Origin: a virus
Length of the DNA: 20,164 bases
IMG/VR virus record: IMGVR_UViG_3300020380_000013
Span: 1 to 20,164 of that record
Reading direction: 5' to 3' (one strand)
The position numbers and the translations under genes are program-made. The notes under the pieces are model-generated. The model did no database searches. It worked only from the letters and a program-made list of their open reading frames with translations, and was not told the origin of the DNA. Positions 11,315 through 18,416 of the stretch are shown here, one piece after another; the stretch's first letter is position 1, and every line of letters begins with the position of its first letter.

Positions 11315-11322
11315 AATAAATA
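11315..11322 (+). promoter_or_regulatory. Late promoter box before the AT-rich gene pair
   Basis: AATAAATA, the marine T4-like variant of the late box (N-ATAAATA), begins two bases after the tRNA and ends 15 bases before the ATG at 11338. The transcript would have a leader of only a few bases. Confidence 0.55.
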
Positions 11323-11337: not shown

Positions 11338-12768
11338 ATGGCACCAAAAATTAAAGCAAATATATCAAATCTTGAGGATTTTTTATATGAAATTGGTCCT
11401 GTAAATACTAAAGAACAGGTGTCATATAATAAAACGTTGTTTGAAGTTTATAAAAGTAGAGGAGGTTTAGAAATATACGTCGAAAATCCTCCTGGTAAAA
11501 AAAGTGAATTGAATAAATTTAGAAACGGAATAGTAAATGAAATAAAGGGTAAGTTTACGGGCATTAATATTTTTAAAAATGATGGTGTGCCATATGTTAA
11601 AGTGGGTCCGCAAACTATCACTTTTGATATAGAAGAGGATGTAGATATTGGAGGTGGTGGAGTCATACCTACAAAAATTCAAGAAGAGGGAACCACAGTT
11701 GTTTTAAATCAAGTATTGCATAATAATAAAAAATTTGATAAAAAAGAAGACATACTGGATGACTTGGAGACTGCCAAAGAATTGAAAAAATTATTTGGTA
11801 AAAAGTATGAAGGCAGGTTAAAAGAGTGGACGCATAGTTACTTTGAGCAACAAAGAGAATTCTTAAAAAAATTTCAAAGTGCGAAGTGGGATGTCTTTGT
11901 ATATGGAAAGGATGATTTTGTTACTTTCTTTTCTAAACAAATAAAAAATGTTGCCAGATCACTTGATCCAATAAAACCAGTAGGAAACTACACGACTTGG
12001 AATCCATCTGATATTTGGGCTGTCTATGAGGGAGATAAAGTTAAAAAAGAAATAGAAAAAAATATTAATCCAAAGACTCAAAATTTAGTTGAATTAAATA
12101 ATCTACTCATAAATTTATTTAAAGAGAAAAAACTAATTGGATTGTCTCTTAAAAAAATTGCATCTAATAAATCTGCTAAATTAAAATTTGTTAATATCGA
12201 CACATCTACCATGAAAATAGGTGAAATTGAAACTTTCGATATGAAAGATATATCATTTGATATTGATAATATTTTTATCGGAGATAAAGTAACAACATAT
12301 GTAAAACTGGGAAGGCAAGGTGAATATTCAATTAATATCACAAGAGCAGGACAAAACTTAAGTTTCAATACTGCAATTAAAGCAACACCTGCAGCTCAAG
12401 GTGGTCAAGCACCTGTTAAGATGATTCAAGATATTTTGAAAAAATCTGGACCAACTTCATTCATCAATGATCATAATAAATATCCACAATCTATTGTAGA
12501 ATATCAAAAAGAGGCAAAAAAATATTCAGAAATGTATAAATTTTTAGGGAAATATTTTAAAAAATCTGTTCCTTACTCAGAATTTGAGAGTAATCTTTAT
12601 GCTGTGTATAGTAAGGATAAACGAAATGCAATTGTTAAACTGATGACACTTAACTTTTTTCACGACTCTTTAAAAAATAATTCTAAAGATAAAGAGTTCT
12701 GGACTGATATGTTATATCTTGGTATGAAAGTAGGGAAAAGATTCTCACCTCACGCAAAGATATCATAA
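11338..12768 (+). CDS. PD-(D/E)xK nuclease-like protein, AT-rich gene
   Basis: A 476-residue protein. Residues 221-227 (WNPSDIW, D225) and 268-273 (GLSLKK, S270, K272), with a helix LNNLLINLFKEKK between them, match the restriction-endonuclease-like pattern 'W-x-P-S/A-D-I-W ... G-I/L-S-L-K-K' in which D and K are active-site residues. The N-terminal 140 residues look like separate strands (KVGPQTITFDIEED). The C-terminus is helical. Homing, restriction-type or DNA-processing nucleases share this core; which one cannot be told. The gene is very AT-rich (one counted 60-base stretch, 12121-12180, is 14 G/C), Lys/Asn/Ile-rich, and has a late box but no ribosome site. Transcription would be late, so a role in host DNA breakdown early on is unlikely; packaging, competitor defence or a virion-borne nuclease fits better. 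Confidence 0.6.
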   Translation: MAPKIKANISNLEDFLYEIGPVNTKEQVSYNKTLFEVYKSRGGLEIYVENPPGKKSELNKFRNGIVNEIKGKFTGINIFKNDGVPYVKVGPQTITFDIEEDVDIGGGGVIPTKIQEEGTTVVLNQVLHNNKKFDKKEDILDDLETAKELKKLFGKKYEGRLKEWTHSYFEQQREFLKKFQSAKWDVFVYGKDDFVTFFSKQIKNVARSLDPIKPVGNYTTWNPSDIWAVYEGDKVKKEIEKNINPKTQNLVELNNLLINLFKEKKLIGLSLKKIASNKSAKLKFVNIDTSTMKIGEIETFDMKDISFDIDNIFIGDKVTTYVKLGRQGEYSINITRAGQNLSFNTAIKATPAAQGGQAPVKMIQDILKKSGPTSFINDHNKYPQSIVEYQKEAKKYSEMYKFLGKYFKKSVPYSEFESNLYAVYSKDKRNAIVKLMTLNFFHDSLKNNSKDKEFWTDMLYLGMKVGKRFSPHAKIS

Positions 12769-12774
12769 TAAATA
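12767..12774 (+). promoter_or_regulatory. Late promoter box before the second nuclease-like gene
   Basis: AATAAATA overlaps the stop of the preceding gene and ends nine bases before the ATG at 12784. With a start site some six to eight bases downstream, the mRNA would be practically leaderless. Confidence 0.45.
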
Positions 12775-12783
12775 AAGATAAAA

Positions 12784-13605
12784 ATGGCAAACAAGGGTCT
12801 ACAATTTGAACATGCAGTAATGTATGTTGCAACATCTAGAATCCTACAAAGAAATGCTGAGCAAGAATCAAACTTTGCTGATGCTGCTAATAGATGGTCT
12901 CTGATACCAGCAGATATAAAGAAAAAGGCTGAAGATATAGTTTTAGAATTAGCTCCTAATGGTGAAAGAAATCGTCAAGACTATTTTGGATCATTTAAAA
13001 AAATGAGTGGTGGTGGTGAGGAACCTAAAACTGATATACTTTTTAAGGTAGGTAATAAAAAATATAAGTGCTCAATGAAGTGGGGAAAGTCTTATCAATT
13101 AACTAGTGCTGGAGTTGATAAATCCATTCAAGTTTTCACCAAGGTCTTAAAAAAAGTTGCACAAGATCTTGGTACTAATAATATGAGTATCGATTCTCTT
13201 GGAAATTTGCAATTGATATTTGAAAATATATCAAATAAATTTGAAAATAGAATGGGAACCATGGATCAATCCACAGCAAAGAGATTGATGGGTGATGTTA
13301 AAAAATCTGGTGGAATTAATGAACAACTTCAAGAGGTTTTAGGATCAAAGAAAGCACCAACAGGGGATGTTGCATATGAAACTTTCAAGTTTGAATTAAC
13401 AAAAGAATGTATGACAGGTGATATGCTTTTTAATGGAGACGATAGAGCAGCTGATCATTTATTTACTGAAGATGGTGTTAAACCAATCACAGACAAAGTT
13501 GTCAGAGACGTTATGAAAATTGCTGGAGTTAGACTCTCACTTAAGGGTCGTGGTAAAAAGAATGGAGTTAGGCAAAATGCAATCTCTATTAGATATGAAG
13601 TCTAA
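12784..13605 (+). CDS. PD-(D/E)xK nuclease-like protein, second of pair
   Basis: A 273-residue protein. EPKTDILF (D84) and, 12 residues on, CSMKWGKSYQLTSAG (S97, K99) match the pattern 'K-T-D-I/L ... I-S-L/M-K ... G-G-S-Q-L-x-S-G' of restriction-like nucleases, where D and K (and often an upstream Glu, here possibly E9 in LQFEHAV) build the metal site. The second acidic position is Ser, as in its upstream neighbour, which is an accepted variant. The rest is helical, ending in LSLKGRGKKNGVRQNAISIRYEV, a basic strand-turn-strand that could touch DNA. Start 12784 has no Shine-Dalgarno. It is AT-rich like its neighbour, separated from it by 15 bases, and the two probably moved in together. An alternative is a structural nucleic-acid-binding role. 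Confidence 0.6.
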   Translation: MANKGLQFEHAVMYVATSRILQRNAEQESNFADAANRWSLIPADIKKKAEDIVLELAPNGERNRQDYFGSFKKMSGGGEEPKTDILFKVGNKKYKCSMKWGKSYQLTSAGVDKSIQVFTKVLKKVAQDLGTNNMSIDSLGNLQLIFENISNKFENRMGTMDQSTAKRLMGDVKKSGGINEQLQEVLGSKKAPTGDVAYETFKFELTKECMTGDMLFNGDDRAADHLFTEDGVKPITDKVVRDVMKIAGVRLSLKGRGKKNGVRQNAISIRYEV

Positions 13606-13631
13606 ATAATGTATAAGGATTATCAATATAG

Positions 13632-14852
13632 ATGAAAAGTTTCTTTCAGTTTCTGAATGAGGCGCAGTCGCAAGCATCAATGCAGGCGAAAAAACTGAAC
13701 CTCAAGAGTGATGGTCACGGTGGTTGGTTAGACTCCCGTGGAAAATTTGTTGCGACTACTGAAGATGGTAAACTGAAGTTTGTTGATAAAAAGAAAAAGA
13801 AAGTAGAAGATGAACCAACTGCAAGACCCAGAGCAGCAAAACCAGAACCTAAGGAAGAACCCAAGAAGACTGCACTTAAAAAGACTAGTGCGGTGACAGC
13901 AAAAGCAGGTGAGGGAGAGACTGATGCAAAGACTTCAGAGGTTCTGACTGTTGCATTTGGACGTTTTAATCCTCCAACTGTAGGTCACGGTAAACTTCTA
14001 TCTGCTGCAAAGAAAGCATCAGAGGGTGGAGACTTAAAAATATATCCCTCACGATCGCAGGATGCTAAGAAAAATCCGTTGGATCCTGATATGAAGATTT
14101 CTTTTATGAAAAAGATGTTCCCTGATTATTCAGAGAACATTGTTAATGATGATGAGATGAGATCTATTTTTAATGTTCTTACCACAGCATCCGAGGGTGG
14201 ATATAAAGATGTAAATATTATTGTAGGATCGGATCGTCAAGCAGAGTTTGAGAACCTTGCAAACAAGTACAATGGTGATCTTTATGACTTTGAAAACATT
14301 CGTGTTATCTCTGCAGGTGTAAGAGATGCAGATGCTGAAGGTGTTGAGGGAATGTCAGCATCCAAGATGAGAAAGGCAGTTGTTGATGGAGATTTTGATG
14401 CTTTCCGTCGTGGGACTCCAAAAGATCTAAATGACGGTGATACTCGGGCGTTGTTTGATGCAGTCCGATCTGGTATGGGAGTTAAAGCAAAGAAAGAAGT
14501 TAAAGAAATGTGGGAGATTGCTCCTAAGTGTGACCCCAAAGGTTTGAGAGATAACTATGTTTCAGGAAACATTTTTAATATTGGTGATATTGTAGAGAGT
14601 CTTCACACTGGTTTGATTGGTAAGATTGTTCGTCGTGGAACAAATCATCTTATCTGCGTTACCAAAGAAGATTATATGTTTAAATCCTGGATTCGTGATG
14701 TGATGGAGGCAGTACAAAACTATCCAGGTCCATCTGGTGTTCCCTCTGATCAAAGACTTGTAGGAACTGATGCTCATCGTGAATATGTAATGAGACTAAC
14801 GGGAACTGCTGGTATAAAGAATTTAATAAATAAGTATAAGAAAAAGAAGTAG
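13632..14852 (+). CDS. Nucleotidyltransferase-domain head protein with capsid-targeting N-terminus
   Basis: A 406-residue protein in three parts. Residues 1-11, MKSFFQFLNEA, parallel the T4 internal-protein targeting peptide (MKTYQEFIAEA, from memory), including L-x-E followed by A at the same position, the gp21 protease cut site. Residues 12-100 are a Lys/Pro/Glu-rich linker. Residues of about 104-290 are a cytidylyltransferase/NMNAT-like Rossmann domain: GRFNPPTVGH at 110-119 (nucleotide-binding; the first His of HxGH replaced by T116) and MSASKMR at 241-247, matching the I-S-x-S-K-M-R motif. A C-terminal module (FNIGDIVESLHTGLIGKIVRRG) looks like a small barrel. Substrate unknown: nucleotide plus phosphate compound, NAD synthesis or protein/nucleic-acid nucleotidylation are options. 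AAGGA lies at 13615-13619. A one-mismatch late box (TCTAAATA) is at 13601-13608. Confidence 0.75.
   Translation: MKSFFQFLNEAQSQASMQAKKLNLKSDGHGGWLDSRGKFVATTEDGKLKFVDKKKKKVEDEPTARPRAAKPEPKEEPKKTALKKTSAVTAKAGEGETDAKTSEVLTVAFGRFNPPTVGHGKLLSAAKKASEGGDLKIYPSRSQDAKKNPLDPDMKISFMKKMFPDYSENIVNDDEMRSIFNVLTTASEGGYKDVNIIVGSDRQAEFENLANKYNGDLYDFENIRVISAGVRDADAEGVEGMSASKMRKAVVDGDFDAFRRGTPKDLNDGDTRALFDAVRSGMGVKAKKEVKEMWEIAPKCDPKGLRDNYVSGNIFNIGDIVESLHTGLIGKIVRRGTNHLICVTKEDYMFKSWIRDVMEAVQNYPGPSGVPSDQRLVGTDAHREYVMRLTGTAGIKNLINKYKKKK
14825..14832 (+). promoter_or_regulatory. Possible late promoter box inside the end of the preceding gene
   Basis: AATAAATA ends 30 bases before the ATG at 14863. It also encodes residues of the preceding protein (N-K in LINKYK), so chance is possible; position favours a promoter. 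Confidence 0.4.
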
Positions 14853-14862
14853 TTGTATCACC

Positions 14863-16683
14863 ATGTCTGGAATTCATTTGAAAGATCTCTCTAAGGTCTA
14901 TAAAGAACAGATTGCAGAGAAGAAAGACGATTCATATCTTGAAACTGATATGAAAAAACGTCAGAAAAATAATGAAAAGGCACGTAAAGATATGAAGAAG
15001 ATGGGTTCTATGAGCAACCCACACTTTGGAGATGGTCCAACAGGTAGTATGTCCTCTGAGGAAGTTGAGGTTGATGAAGCAATGTCCTCTTATGATAGAA
15101 ATCGCAAGAGAGCAGCACAGAGAGCAGCAGATAGAAATGCTGCCCGTGCTGCTGGTAAGACTGGTGTAGTGCCTGGTGTTGGATATGTATCTCCTAGAAA
15201 GGAGAGAGAAACTTATGTTGATTCTGCAGGTACAACTAGACACAAGTCAGGTGCAAAGATGGAAGGACTTGATCCTGTAGGTAAGGAAGATGGTGATGTC
15301 AATAATGACGGTAAAAAAGATAGCACCGACTCATACTTGATGAAGCGTCGTAAGGCAATCGGTAAGGCAATCAAGAGTAAGATGTCCGAAGGTGTTCGTG
15401 ACATGGATCCTGAGAAAGGAACTGCTGAAAGAAAGGCACGTCTTGAAAAGAAACGTGGTATGAAGATGGATGATCATCCTGAGTATAAGAAAGAGGAATA
15501 CATCCCTGAAGTCATGACAGACAGTATGGACGAAAAACCCATCAAGGAAAAGAAAGTAAAGAATATTGTAAAGATTAATCCTAAAATGGGTGAATCTGTA
15601 GAAGAGATTGGTGGTGAACTAATTGAAGCAGTTGAAATCTTTGATATCCTTGAAGAGATCACTGATGAAGAACTGAGATTCATCTCTGATAAAATGATTA
15701 ATGAAGTTGTAGAGGAGTTCTTTGCTGAAGCAGTGGAGAAAGATGAGGATCTTGAGGTTCTTCAGCAAAATCTTTGCGAATCAATTGATTTATCAATCAG
15801 TATTCTTCTGGAGCAAGATGCTGGTGCAGAAGCACGTAAGCGATTAATGAGTCGTCCTTCTAGAGCATCTGTCATGGACAGAGTAAAGTCTGCTGTTAAG
15901 AAAACAGGTAAGGCAGTAGCAAGAGGTGCTGGATATGCTGCTGGTGCTGCAGTAAGAGGAGCAAAAGCAGCAGGTAGAGAGTTCTCTAAAGGATATGAGA
16001 GAGGAAGTACAGGTTCTTCTGGATCCTCTGATTCTTCATCCTCGAATTCTGATTCATCATCATCTTCTGCTCCTAAGAAGAAAGGACCAGGAATGCTTAG
16101 CAGAATTGGTGCTAAACTCAAGAGAGGTATTGGTAAAGCAGCAAGAGCAGTATCTAGAGGTGCTAGAAACGTAGCACGTAAGATGGATGAGGCAGTTTAT
16201 GGTGGAACTCCTGCTAAGAAGGAAGCACCAAAGGACAATCGTATGGTAGTCACTGCTGCTGACAAGAAAGGAAATACTCCTGCATATCAGAGATATAAAG
16301 CAGGTGACAAGCGTTATAAGGCTGCTGACCATATGGGTGAGGAAATGTCTCCTCAAGAAATACAAATGCAGAAAAAGAAGGCAACTCTTGATAAGATGAT
16401 TGCTATGAAGAGAAAGCAGCAACTTGATAAGACAAAAGCAGAACCTGTCAAGGCAATGGGTGAAGAAGCATCGGATGCGATGAAAGATCGTCGTATGGAA
16501 CGTGGTGGGGTTGCTGGTAATCAACGTTATGATCGTCCTGCCAAGGGTGTAAAAACCGGTCCCATGTCTGATGCTGAAAAGAAAAAGTCAAGAGAAGCAT
16601 CATCCAGAGCAATGGACTTTGTAAGAGCATCCATCACATCTAAGTATGGTAAGGGTGCCATTATCGATACCAAGAAGAAGTAA
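14863..16683 (+). CDS. Large basic low-complexity protein, probable head/core component
   Basis: A 606-residue, strongly charged protein. Near the N-terminus VYKEQIAEK resembles the I-x-E cut site of T4 prohead peptides. At 145-156 a calcium-loop pattern (D145, N147, D149, D153, D156 in GDVNNDGKKDSTD, followed by LMKRRKAI) closely resembles one dockerin/EF-hand half-repeat. Residues of about 250-315 are acidic helices (LEEITDEELRFISDK). Two Ala/Gly/Arg/Lys-rich stretches (337-378 and 405-440) flank a Ser-rich linker (381-404) and look histone-H1-like. Several L/I-x-E-A sites occur inside. These traits suit a scaffold or internal core protein that binds DNA and is cut during head maturation. 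No exact T4 counterpart is recognised. The start has no clear ribosome site; the stop overlaps the next gene's start (TAATG). Confidence 0.65.
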   Translation: MSGIHLKDLSKVYKEQIAEKKDDSYLETDMKKRQKNNEKARKDMKKMGSMSNPHFGDGPTGSMSSEEVEVDEAMSSYDRNRKRAAQRAADRNAARAAGKTGVVPGVGYVSPRKERETYVDSAGTTRHKSGAKMEGLDPVGKEDGDVNNDGKKDSTDSYLMKRRKAIGKAIKSKMSEGVRDMDPEKGTAERKARLEKKRGMKMDDHPEYKKEEYIPEVMTDSMDEKPIKEKKVKNIVKINPKMGESVEEIGGELIEAVEIFDILEEITDEELRFISDKMINEVVEEFFAEAVEKDEDLEVLQQNLCESIDLSISILLEQDAGAEARKRLMSRPSRASVMDRVKSAVKKTGKAVARGAGYAAGAAVRGAKAAGREFSKGYERGSTGSSGSSDSSSSNSDSSSSSAPKKKGPGMLSRIGAKLKRGIGKAARAVSRGARNVARKMDEAVYGGTPAKKEAPKDNRMVVTAADKKGNTPAYQRYKAGDKRYKAADHMGEEMSPQEIQMQKKKATLDKMIAMKRKQQLDKTKAEPVKAMGEEASDAMKDRRMERGGVAGNQRYDRPAKGVKTGPMSDAEKKKSREASSRAMDFVRASITSKYGKGAIIDTKKK

Positions 16684-17543
16684 TGCCTGCGGTATCTAAA
16701 AAGCAGCAACGGTTCTTCGGAATAGTTCGTGCCATTCAAAAAGGTGAGATGGCACCTACTACTCCTGAGACTGCGAAGGCAGCTGCTGACATGAAAAAGA
16801 GTGATGTAAAAGATTTTGCATCTACCAAGCATAAGAAACTCCCTGAGAAGAAAGTTGCAAAAGAAGCAGCAGATTTTTCTGAAAGAGATAAGATTATGAA
16901 GAGAGCAAAACCTCTTCATAAGCATCTCTATAGTAGACTACACAAGAAAGATGCGTCTGGTGATGTAAACGAGGAATCAAATCCTCGTATTCCTAGAAAG
17001 AAAGGACAACCCGCAAACTCTAAGAAGCATTCTGATCTTTACACTGACGAGAATCCCAAGGGAACTATTCATGGTTTAGGATTCAAGGATGTTGCAACTG
17101 CCAAAGCATCTGTAACGAAGATTCGCAATTCATCTAGATCTCATGCTCATAAAATCCAGGCAGCAGTTGCCATGGAACAGAGAGCAAGAGAAATGGGAAA
17201 GACTTCAGAAGCAGCAGTTTATAGAAAATATATCAACTCAATGAAAAAGAAGACCAAGAAAATGAATGAGGGTTGGTCTGACAAATATAAGAAATCTATC
17301 GACTGTAATAATCCAAAAGGATTTTCTCAGAGAGCACACTGTCAAGGTAGAAAGAAGAAAGTTTCTGAAGAAACTAAGTATGATAGGTATGACAAGGAGA
17401 AGAAACAGTTTGCTAAAGCAGACCGTAAGATGAAGTTTGGTAAGTTTTATGATAAAGCAAAGGAAGCAAAGAATCGTCTTCGTCCTGGTGAAGTCAAACG
17501 TTACGACAAAAAGTTAGGTAGATACGTTTCTAATAAAGATTGA
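16683..17543 (+). CDS. DUF3008-type virion protein with fused C-terminal modules
   Basis: A 286-residue, Lys-rich protein made of several modules. Residues 1-58 (MPAVSKKQQRFFGIVRAIQKGE, then KSDVKDFASTKHKKLPEK) are the DUF3008 signature, usually a stand-alone small protein of about 60-75 residues. Residues of about 115-195 (ENPKGTIHGLGFKDVATAKAS, HKIQAAVAMEQRAREMGK) form a second module, and 198-225 (MNEGWSDKYKKSIDCNNPKGF, SQRAHCQGRKKK) a third with a C-x15-C pair. I recall the latter two from other marine phage proteins as separate units, so this looks like a fusion. A final basic coiled region follows (to VSNKD). Basic small proteins of this kind are plausible DNA-associated head components. 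Function unknown. The start overlaps the upstream stop (TAATG). Confidence 0.7.
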   Translation: MPAVSKKQQRFFGIVRAIQKGEMAPTTPETAKAAADMKKSDVKDFASTKHKKLPEKKVAKEAADFSERDKIMKRAKPLHKHLYSRLHKKDASGDVNEESNPRIPRKKGQPANSKKHSDLYTDENPKGTIHGLGFKDVATAKASVTKIRNSSRSHAHKIQAAVAMEQRAREMGKTSEAAVYRKYINSMKKKTKKMNEGWSDKYKKSIDCNNPKGFSQRAHCQGRKKKVSEETKYDRYDKEKKQFAKADRKMKFGKFYDKAKEAKNRLRPGEVKRYDKKLGRYVSNKD

Positions 17544-17787: not shown

Positions 17788-17819
17788 AAAGGAGACCAAA
17801 TTACAAGGTCTCCTTTTTT
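17788..17819 (+). terminator. Rho-independent terminator of the late unit
   Basis: AAAGGAGACC (17788-17797) pairs perfectly over ten bases with GGTCTCCTTT (17807-17816) around a nine-base loop AAATTACAA, with T at 17814-17819. Its last T is the first base of the next late promoter box. Confidence 0.93.
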
Positions 17820-17858: not shown

Positions 17859-18416
17859 ATGGCACTCTGGGGCAATAATGATAACCTGAACTCTAATGGC
17901 ACTGTGACCCTTGACTACAGCACTAACGTAGTAACTGGCACAGGAACCACTTTTGGTGCAGCAGGTGCTGGACATACTGAAGCACAAGTTGGTGATATCA
18001 TCAGATTTGGAATTAGAGACGCTGATACATCTAATGGGTTTACTACTTATTTTGGTGATGCTGTAATTGTTGGTATCGCAAGTACAACTCAATTAACGAT
18101 TGGATCGACTGCGAACTTAACTGGTGGTGCAATTGGACCAATTGGCACATCATTTACTATTTCTCAGTGTCCTAAGAGCACTATTGTTGATTCAAATTAT
18201 AGTCAACTTAATGGTGACAAGGACACCTTTGTTTATGGTATTTCTACCACTGGTGCTCAGAATGCGAATGCCACTGCATATGAAACTGGTGTAGGTTGGG
18301 TTGGTATTACTACTTACACTGACCAGCACGGAACTCTGAGAGTTAAGAAAGAAGTCTTGGTTGCAATGTCTGGAATCACGACTGGCAACGTACCTGCTTT
18401 CCCTGATGCTAAGTAA
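17859..18416 (+). CDS. Virion structural protein, beta-rich
   Basis: A 185-residue protein, MALWGNNDNLNSNGTVTLDYS onward, rich in Gly, Thr, Ser and Asn with alternating short strands and few charged residues, typical of a surface-exposed virion component. The TVTLDYSTNVVTGTGTTFGAAG region is a beta-solenoid/beta-sandwich-like run. A purine-rich GGAAGAGAAAC precedes the start. It is first behind an exact late promoter and insulated from upstream by a terminator, indicating high, strictly late expression. Known relatives in marine T4-like phages are, to my recollection, annotated as virion structural proteins. A small head- or tail-decoration protein is the best guess; no specific T4 gp number is claimed. 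Confidence 0.65.
   Translation: MALWGNNDNLNSNGTVTLDYSTNVVTGTGTTFGAAGAGHTEAQVGDIIRFGIRDADTSNGFTTYFGDAVIVGIASTTQLTIGSTANLTGGAIGPIGTSFTISQCPKSTIVDSNYSQLNGDKDTFVYGISTTGAQNANATAYETGVGWVGITTYTDQHGTLRVKKEVLVAMSGITTGNVPAFPDAK

Follow-up and report, generated by a model that had tools for sequence, protein, structure and literature searches.

The window, by which we mean the whole stretch of DNA that was analysed, is a virus record of 20,164 bases whose nearest named relatives are T4-like cyanophages, with S-SM2 the closest (82% identity over 60%) and Bellamy, SynMITS9220M01 and S-SCSM1 following. The gene at 13632-14852 encodes a protein of 406 residues that is matched by 531 phage records in tblastn and has a 48% identical homologue in P-SSM2 (PSSM2_194, which is T4-GC190). 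Its N-terminus is MKSFFQFLNEAQSQAS, in which we read the leader as MKSFFQFLNE|A. The features of this gene and its neighbours are listed below.

11315-11322, plus strand: AATAAATA, late-promoter-like motif before 11338 (motif scan).
11338-12768, plus strand: PHROG_1462 protein of the same cluster, no known function (PHROGs).
12767-12774, plus strand: AATAAATA, late-promoter-like motif before 12784 (motif scan).
12784-13605, plus strand: PHROG_22045 protein of the same cluster, no known function (PHROGs).
13601-13608, plus strand: TCTAAATA, one mismatch from NATAAATA, 23 bases before the enzyme start codon (motif scan).
13632-14852, plus strand: leader-bearing, predicted HIGH-type nucleotidylyltransferase, 406 aa (PHROG_395 'cytidyltransferase', profile E 6.7e-105).
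13632-13661, plus strand: putative capsid-targeting leader, residues 1-10, MKSFFQFLNE (T4 comparison, conservation in homologues).
Between bases 13661 and 13662, plus strand: predicted gp21-type cut after E10 (leader match).
13680-13781, plus strand: small beta module with SDGHG, residues 17-50 (model; common to the S-CREM2 virion proteins gp12 and gp14).
13782-13931, plus strand: low-confidence linker, residues 51-100, probably disordered (ten-residue pLDDT means 50-58).
13935-14486, plus strand: nucleotidylyltransferase domain, residues 102-285 (GRFNPPTVGH, MSASKMR, model, fold).
14559-14711, plus strand: small all-beta C-terminal domain, residues 310-360 (model; phrog_4808).
14825-14832, plus strand: AATAAATA, late-promoter-like motif before 14863, inside the end of the enzyme gene (motif scan).
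14863-16683, plus strand: next gene, 606 aa (short matches to S-SCSM1 virion ORF89, 39 residues, and ORF92, 211 residues).
16683-17543, plus strand: MPAVSKKQQRFFG protein, 286 aa (N-terminus matches S-SCSM1 virion ORF93, 72% over 57).
17859-18416, plus strand: homologue of S-SCSM1 virion ORF95, 60% (TATAAATA at 17819).

An AlphaFold2 model of the enzyme, built on a 57-sequence alignment (mean pLDDT 81.8, pTM 0.56), places a short helix at leader residues 4-10, followed in order by the small beta module, the low-confidence linker, the nucleotidylyltransferase domain and the small beta domain. The GRFNPPTVGH and MSASKMR motifs that an earlier note on this DNA had assigned to the enzyme domain were located there, at residues 110-119 and 241-247. 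By eye, the C-terminal beta domain resembles a small S-PM2 gene, S-PM2p144.

Comparison with T4 gives the leader its meaning. According to the accessible text of PMC9026906, the first ten residues of T4 IPIII are enough for packaging, with residues 4 and 7 acting in targeting and residues 8 and 10 in cleavage, and gp21 cuts after L/I-x-E. In the T4 record, IPII and IPIII both open MKTYQEFIAEA (cut MKTYQEFIAE|A), and the window leader agrees with IPIII in length and at all four functional positions (F4, F7 and L8-N9-E10|A11), in keeping with the T4-like capsid-targeting leader proposed in the earlier note. The further likening of this leader to IPI-III as a group is exact for IPII and IPIII alone, because the T4 record gives IPI a longer leader, MKTFKEFTSTTTPVSTITEA.

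We assessed how often such a leader arises by chance. A DNA pattern for MK[ST][FY]..F[IL].EA has one match in the window and none in 100 dinucleotide shuffles. In S-SCSM1 (282 proteins) the strict form M..[FY]..F[LI].E was found at a single protein start, that of the enzyme homologue; none of the 1217 internal Met begins it, and it matches once among all 70146 positions. Across ten phage genomes a related leader pattern gave 13 matches, spread over 7 of the 10, and the backwards pattern gave 0; an in-frame stop lies no more than 14 codons upstream of 12 of them, while at the thirteenth, S-CREM2 gp154, the frame stays open 54 codons further upstream and yet the match coincides with the annotated start. 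The T4 matches are exactly ipII, ipIII and gene 61.1. The product of the last (L272:967-1131), a candidate T4 internal protein judging by its sequence, opens with the leader-like MKTFKEFIKED and is encoded directly before primase gene 61 in its reading direction; a primase gene also follows the cyanophage cluster, as gene 61 follows T4 61.1.

The same contrast was seen in viral contigs, where a DNA pattern for MK.F..F..EA gave at least 120 stretches and a control pattern with F4 and E10 exchanged gave 41 matches in the entire collection. Our leader counts use 119 of the 120 stretches listed (L026 was left out; locus labels L095-L213), which hold 124 places, 120 of them evaluable. Among the matches listed, 119 of the 120 evaluable places begin an ORF of 60 residues or more that is preceded by an in-frame stop no farther than 32 codons upstream, the remaining one being a short ORF; only 5 of the 41 control matches open such an ORF and 35 are short ORFs, and five of the six control ORFs of at least 60 residues also start near an upstream stop. 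A T4-core neighbour was present at 81 of 114 leader loci, again among the matches listed, compared to 1 of 41 control loci.

Conservation was examined in homologues fetched by peptides outside the leader, namely the best 80 of 227 viral-contig relatives, which amount to 70 distinct proteins. Within these best 80 of 227, K2, F7 and E10 are constant in all 70 distinct proteins, position 4 is F in 65 and L in 5, position 8 is L in 66, F in 3 and I in 1, and position 11 is A in 69, with position 9 drifting among N, S, T, G and K. Far homologues that were likewise not picked by their leader also have one (S-RIM2 MKKFSAFLTEA, ACG-2014d MKKFSDFLSEA, P-SSM2 MKSFSQFLTET and S-CREM2 MKNFSSFLTEA), and in S-SZBM1 the leader, MRFRQFIIEA, is shorter by one residue. 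The leader is not universal, as the P-HM1, S-PM2 and RaK2 enzymes are without it, and P-HM1 and RaK2 retain the enzyme domain with neither leader nor tail. The earlier note had allowed that its reading would fall if homologues did not conserve the leader; in those looked at, near and several far homologues keep it, though some do without. The invariant M1, K2, F4, F7, E10 and A11 of alignment A1, which lies behind the residue 1-55 profile described below, were not used as evidence because A1 includes sequences picked by the leader pattern.

Homologues of the enzyme have been reported in virions by mass spectrometry, as given in the accessible text of each source: S-SCSM1 ORF91, which is about 70% identical (PMC9602691), S-SZBM1_140 (PMC9146016), S-CREM2 gp154 (PMC10665884) and, in S-SM1 virions, the cyanophage-core 'citidylyltransferase' T4-GC190 (PMC3037559). 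Absence from virions, which the earlier note had offered as a refutation, thus did not come true for homologues in purified virions, contamination not being excluded and this phage's own protein not being among those reported. In the accessible text of the S-SCSM1 and S-CREM2 papers, host delivery is proposed and carry-over after CsCl purification is allowed for (PMC9602691, PMC10665884), and we therefore tested the leader against the virion lists. For S-SCSM1 we used the 48 virion proteins marked in the record (45 in the paper) and 234 others; for S-CREM2, the 52 of the paper's Table 3 among 219 coding genes, leaving 167 others. The strict and loose leader forms were fixed after the S-SCSM1 N-termini had been seen and were applied unchanged to S-CREM2. 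A first, broader N-terminal pattern, which in S-SCSM1 matched 5 of 48 virion and 9 of 234 other proteins without a significance test, was dropped as too loose.

In S-CREM2, the strict leader was found on 3 of 52 virion proteins versus 0 of 167 others (p 0.013) and the loose leader on 5 of 52 versus 1 of 167 (p 0.003). S-SCSM1 alone was not significant with either form (strict 1/48 versus 0/234, p 0.17; loose 1/48 versus 1/234, p 0.31). When both phages were combined, the counts were 4 of 100 virion versus 0 of 401 other proteins for the strict form (Fisher p 0.0015) and 6 of 100 versus 2 of 401 for the loose form (p 0.0011), with the qualification that Fisher tests assume independent genes and that the strict matches ORF91 and gp154 are not independent, because they are homologues of each other. 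The strict S-CREM2 matches, namely the SAM hydrolase gp6, the APH-like kinase gp14 and the cytidylyltransferase gp154, coincide with the three proteins classed as regulatory in Table 3 of the accessible text (PMC10665884). A leader is also present on S-SCSM1 ORF30, which is not among the marked virion proteins, and S-CREM2 gp175, a loose match, was not detected by mass spectrometry.

A profile of residues 1-55 searched against the 501 proteins of S-CREM2 and S-SCSM1 returned four matches, all of them virion proteins: S-SCSM1 ORF91, S-CREM2 gp14 (kinase), gp12 ('Cas9-like') and, weakly, gp154 (E 0.0022). The informative matches are gp14 and gp12, because ORF91 and gp154 belong to the enzyme's own family, and since these two virion proteins lie outside it, residues 1-50 look like a portable tag. 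On other leader proteins the tag profile scored weakly (E 1e-6 and worse), and we do not claim the SDGHG module there. S-CREM2 gp14 (L255:10579-12846) holds the module twice, at about residues 1-34 and 148-209, in BLAST with residues 1-60 alone. S-CREM2 gp12 (L255:7704-10313), annotated as Cas9-like and without a Pfam match at 0.05, shows the SDGHG module close to its N-terminus together with a leader-like PLRFASFMAEA, which sits 16 residues downstream of the annotated start; since the codon at that point is CTG rather than a start codon, gp12 was left out of the leader matches.

The setting of the gene is suggestive of late expression. ATAAATA is the late motif of T4-like phages, a role supported in S-SCSM1, where it precedes 17 of 48 virion genes, ORF91 among them, versus 9 of 234 others (p 6e-9). 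Among the matches listed, 51 of 117 leader genes have the motif in the 100 bp before them, compared to a shuffle mean of 6.3 and a highest value of 14 in 200 shuffles. The S-SCSM1 enzyme homologue has AATAAATA at about -30. The window holds nine plus-strand copies of NATAAATA and none on the other strand; four stand just before cluster genes (11338, 12784, 14863 and 17859) and five elsewhere, three of those inside predicted ORFs. Downstream, whole or partial matches to S-SCSM1 virion proteins were found for the genes at 14863, 16683 and 17859. The 14863 protein opens MSGIHLKDLSKVYKEQIAEKK (window 14863-14919) with IAE at residues 17-19, which would be another, unconfirmed, prohead-protease-like site, spaced as in T4 IPI. 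In S-RIM2 (L087:6761-9826) the leader, the nucleotidyltransferase and a long low-complexity tail like the 14863 gene make up one protein of 1021 residues. The window is a 20 kb fragment without the prohead protease region; the annotated prohead proteases of relatives are S-SCSM1 ORF40 and S-CREM2 gp143.

The leader is shared well beyond this enzyme. When the parts behind the leader are compared by BLAST, the 119 leader proteins among the matches listed form 39 clusters that are dissimilar to one another at E 1e-5, and the enzyme's own cluster accounts for 53 proteins. Representatives of 20 of the other 38 clusters were sent to Pfam; five of the 20 pass the curated cut-off, comprising DUF6267 (a cluster of 4), a lytic-transglycosylase domain (2), DUF192 (6) and two single proteins, one with a glucosaminidase domain and one with a GNAT domain. 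Ten leader proteins compared with PHROGs included one like a 5'-3' deoxyribonucleotidase and one weakly like an RNA 2'-phosphotransferase. Five contigs carry two leader genes each (L117, L125, L172, L182 and L212), as T4 has ipII and ipIII, and small leader proteins with CPxGxYxCxxxKKCKKxPxGxxxG (L114, L133, L139, L199 and L201) resemble S-SCSM1 virion ORF29 by eye. We lean towards the view that marine T4-like phages share a label, MKxFxxF[L/I]xE|A, sometimes with the SDGHG module behind it, that has been swapped onto many unrelated proteins, among them nucleotidyltransferases, RNA-ligase-like DUF6267, a kinase, a SAM lyase, peptidoglycan hydrolases, GNAT and others, so that their heads would deliver varied effectors in a set readable from sequence.

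As to what the enzyme does, the best Foldseek hits of the model are NadM/NadD (E 1e-5), and the best in VIA-align is PPAT (Z 13.6, rmsd 2.8, 150 aligned), with NadD and NadM about 1 Z below it (Z about 12 to 12.6) and 10-17% identity across the structural rows. The modelled fold is that of a HIGH-type nucleotidylyltransferase, equally near NMNAT and PPAT, and the earlier note's remark that the chemistry differs from that of T4 Alt is fair. P114, P115, H119, S140, N148, P149, K155 and G199 are invariant in 57 diverged sequences, and because the active-site pattern is kept we expect the enzyme to be active as a nucleotidylyltransferase, one that probably uses ATP. At the default Pfam limit the enzyme has no match, and under relaxed limits it scores 17.0 bits with PF01467 (CTP_transf_like), under the gathering score of 21 bits, which its homologues in P-SSM2 (44.7), S-SZBM1 (35.6) and P-HM1 (22.6) pass and that in RaK2 (16.5) fails. 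A profile search of solved structures gave nothing significant for the enzyme (best 0.011 for UPF0348 and 0.2 for an archaeal NMNAT). The name NMNAT, chosen by the S-SCSM1 authors, was not accepted, since the NCBIfam equivalog scores are far below cut-off (13.6 of 112.45 bits for TIGR00482 and 11.3 of 341.15 for TIGR01526).

We propose that the enzyme is made late together with the head proteins and that its first ten residues, as a T4-type capsid-targeting sequence, would dock it to the prohead core through F4 and F7. By analogy with T4, a gp21-type prohead protease would then cut at L8-x-E10 to yield a mature protein from A11, and the freed enzyme would remain in the head with the DNA and be ejected into the cyanobacterium at infection. 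There the HIGH-type domain would transfer a nucleotidyl group, most likely adenylyl from ATP, to a phosphorylated acceptor. Our leading guess, held tentatively, is an NMN-like acceptor, which would allow quick NAD restoration; alternatives are a different small molecule or the end of an RNA or DNA. We hold packaging in the head to be very likely, trimming at E10|A11 to be likely and ejection into the host to be reasonably probable, and we favour the explanation as a whole by a modest degree.

The main rival is nucleic-acid repair, because relatives have a DUF6267 gene beside the enzyme and the two are fused in S-PM2 and joined in PHROG_455. Here the enzyme would act on RNA or DNA ends as part of an injected repair kit together with the adjoining ligase-like DUF6267 protein, for example to counter host nucleases that cut tRNA at infection. 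In P-HM1 the gene immediately upstream of the enzyme is a DUF6267 gene (Pfam E 6.3e-137), and a KWDGAP stretch suggests the same arrangement in S-RIM2, ACG-2014d and S-SZBM1; in S-PM2 (L091:4788-6567), by eye, a frame change appears to divide a DUF6267-like gene, the second half of which is joined to a leaderless nucleotidyltransferase, and PHROG_455 covers both domains. KxDGAPA and EGxVA are invariant in 38 DUF6267 sequences, KWDGAP occurs at 75 of 80 loci, and RNA or tRNA ligases fill the eleven best structural rows for a DUF6267 model (Z 7.9 to 6.9), although a Z under 8 may reflect merely a common arrangement and Foldseek found no match for DUF6267 at E <= 0.001. DUF6267 is perhaps a ligase-like covalent nucleotidyltransferase, as far as models tell. 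The leader, in its loose pattern, is on 12 of the 80 DUF6267 loci, and as the others have none or a variant form alone, the tag seems to have been gained or lost on this same enzyme; the loci examined were L100:4695-5942, L137:6418-7623 and L273-L352. Against a repair kit in the present phage, no DUF6267 was found among the window proteins sent to Pfam or PHROGs, and we regard it as unlikely, if the strongest of the alternatives.

We consider it improbable that the leader is an assembly tag alone, in which case the protein would belong to the head or core, carry its enzyme domain as a passenger or in degenerate form, and stay out of the host. T4 IPIII does affect head assembly, in the accessible text of PMC9026906, and the enzyme has further virion proteins of unknown role around it, but active-site positions are conserved across 57 diverged sequences, and in P-HM1 and RaK2 the same domain persists with both leader and tail missing. 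That the enzyme is an abundant late cytoplasmic protein sticking to virions, its leader likeness coincidental or serving another purpose, is very improbable, for although carry-over is mentioned in the accessible text of the mass spectrometry papers and leaderless homologues exist, the leader and the tag profile pick out virion proteins, 39 clusters (among the matches listed) are dissimilar at E 1e-5 behind the leader, and the functional leader positions stay constant while position 9 drifts.

Overall, what the earlier note saw in the sequence is confirmed and its reading is supported in part; the enzyme is probably a tagged, late, head-packaged variant of the T4 internal proteins. That such enzymes occur in cyanophage virions is already known. 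What is new, as far as the open-access literature searched goes, is that these enzymes have a T4-type label, that it is conserved, that unrelated virion enzymes have it in common and that it extends across marine T4-like phages; in the portions of that literature searched, which mostly leave out subscription papers so that absence is unproven, we found no link between a capsid-targeting leader and cyanophages. The enzymes that several groups reported from cyanophage virions could be either cargo or contamination, which those groups were unable to tell apart; a conserved, T4-like loading tag with a predicted cut site makes this distinction simply testable, by asking whether the virion protein begins at A11. 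Because the same label stands on many dissimilar proteins of marine T4-like phages, likely delivered proteins might be predicted from sequence alone, which offers a way to list candidate injected proteins of uncultured ocean phages. If the proposal is true, infection of marine picocyanobacteria starts with delivered enzymes besides DNA.

Among the closest known systems are the cyanophage virion proteins called 'NMNAT / cytidylyltransferase' (S-SCSM1 ORF91, S-CREM2 gp154, S-SZBM1_140 and T4-GC190), which are homologues detected in virions by mass spectrometry; their published accounts, in the accessible text, do not mention a targeting leader and do not exclude contamination. With NadD/NadM/NadR (NMNAT) and CoaD (PPAT), whose motifs take the form GxFxPxxxGH and SxSxxR-type, the enzyme shares the same predicted nucleotidylyltransferase fold and those motifs; unlike NMNAT, it scores under the equivalog cut-offs, and structurally NMNAT ties with PPAT. 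It would resemble T4 Alt, an injected ADP-ribosyltransferase, as a head-packaged enzyme delivered with the DNA, and differs in its chemistry, in that the Alt propeptide has 7 residues and in that Alt stands, in the accessible text, outside the proteins said to share the capsid-targeting sequence. Like T4 IPII and IPIII, it belongs to a T4-like phage and has a ten-residue leader with an aromatic residue at 4, F7, L/I at 8, E10 and A11; unlike the T4 internal proteins, which are small and basic and of which IPI inhibits a restriction enzyme, the cargo here is a 406-aa enzyme with a further module of about 35 residues that is common to other cargos.
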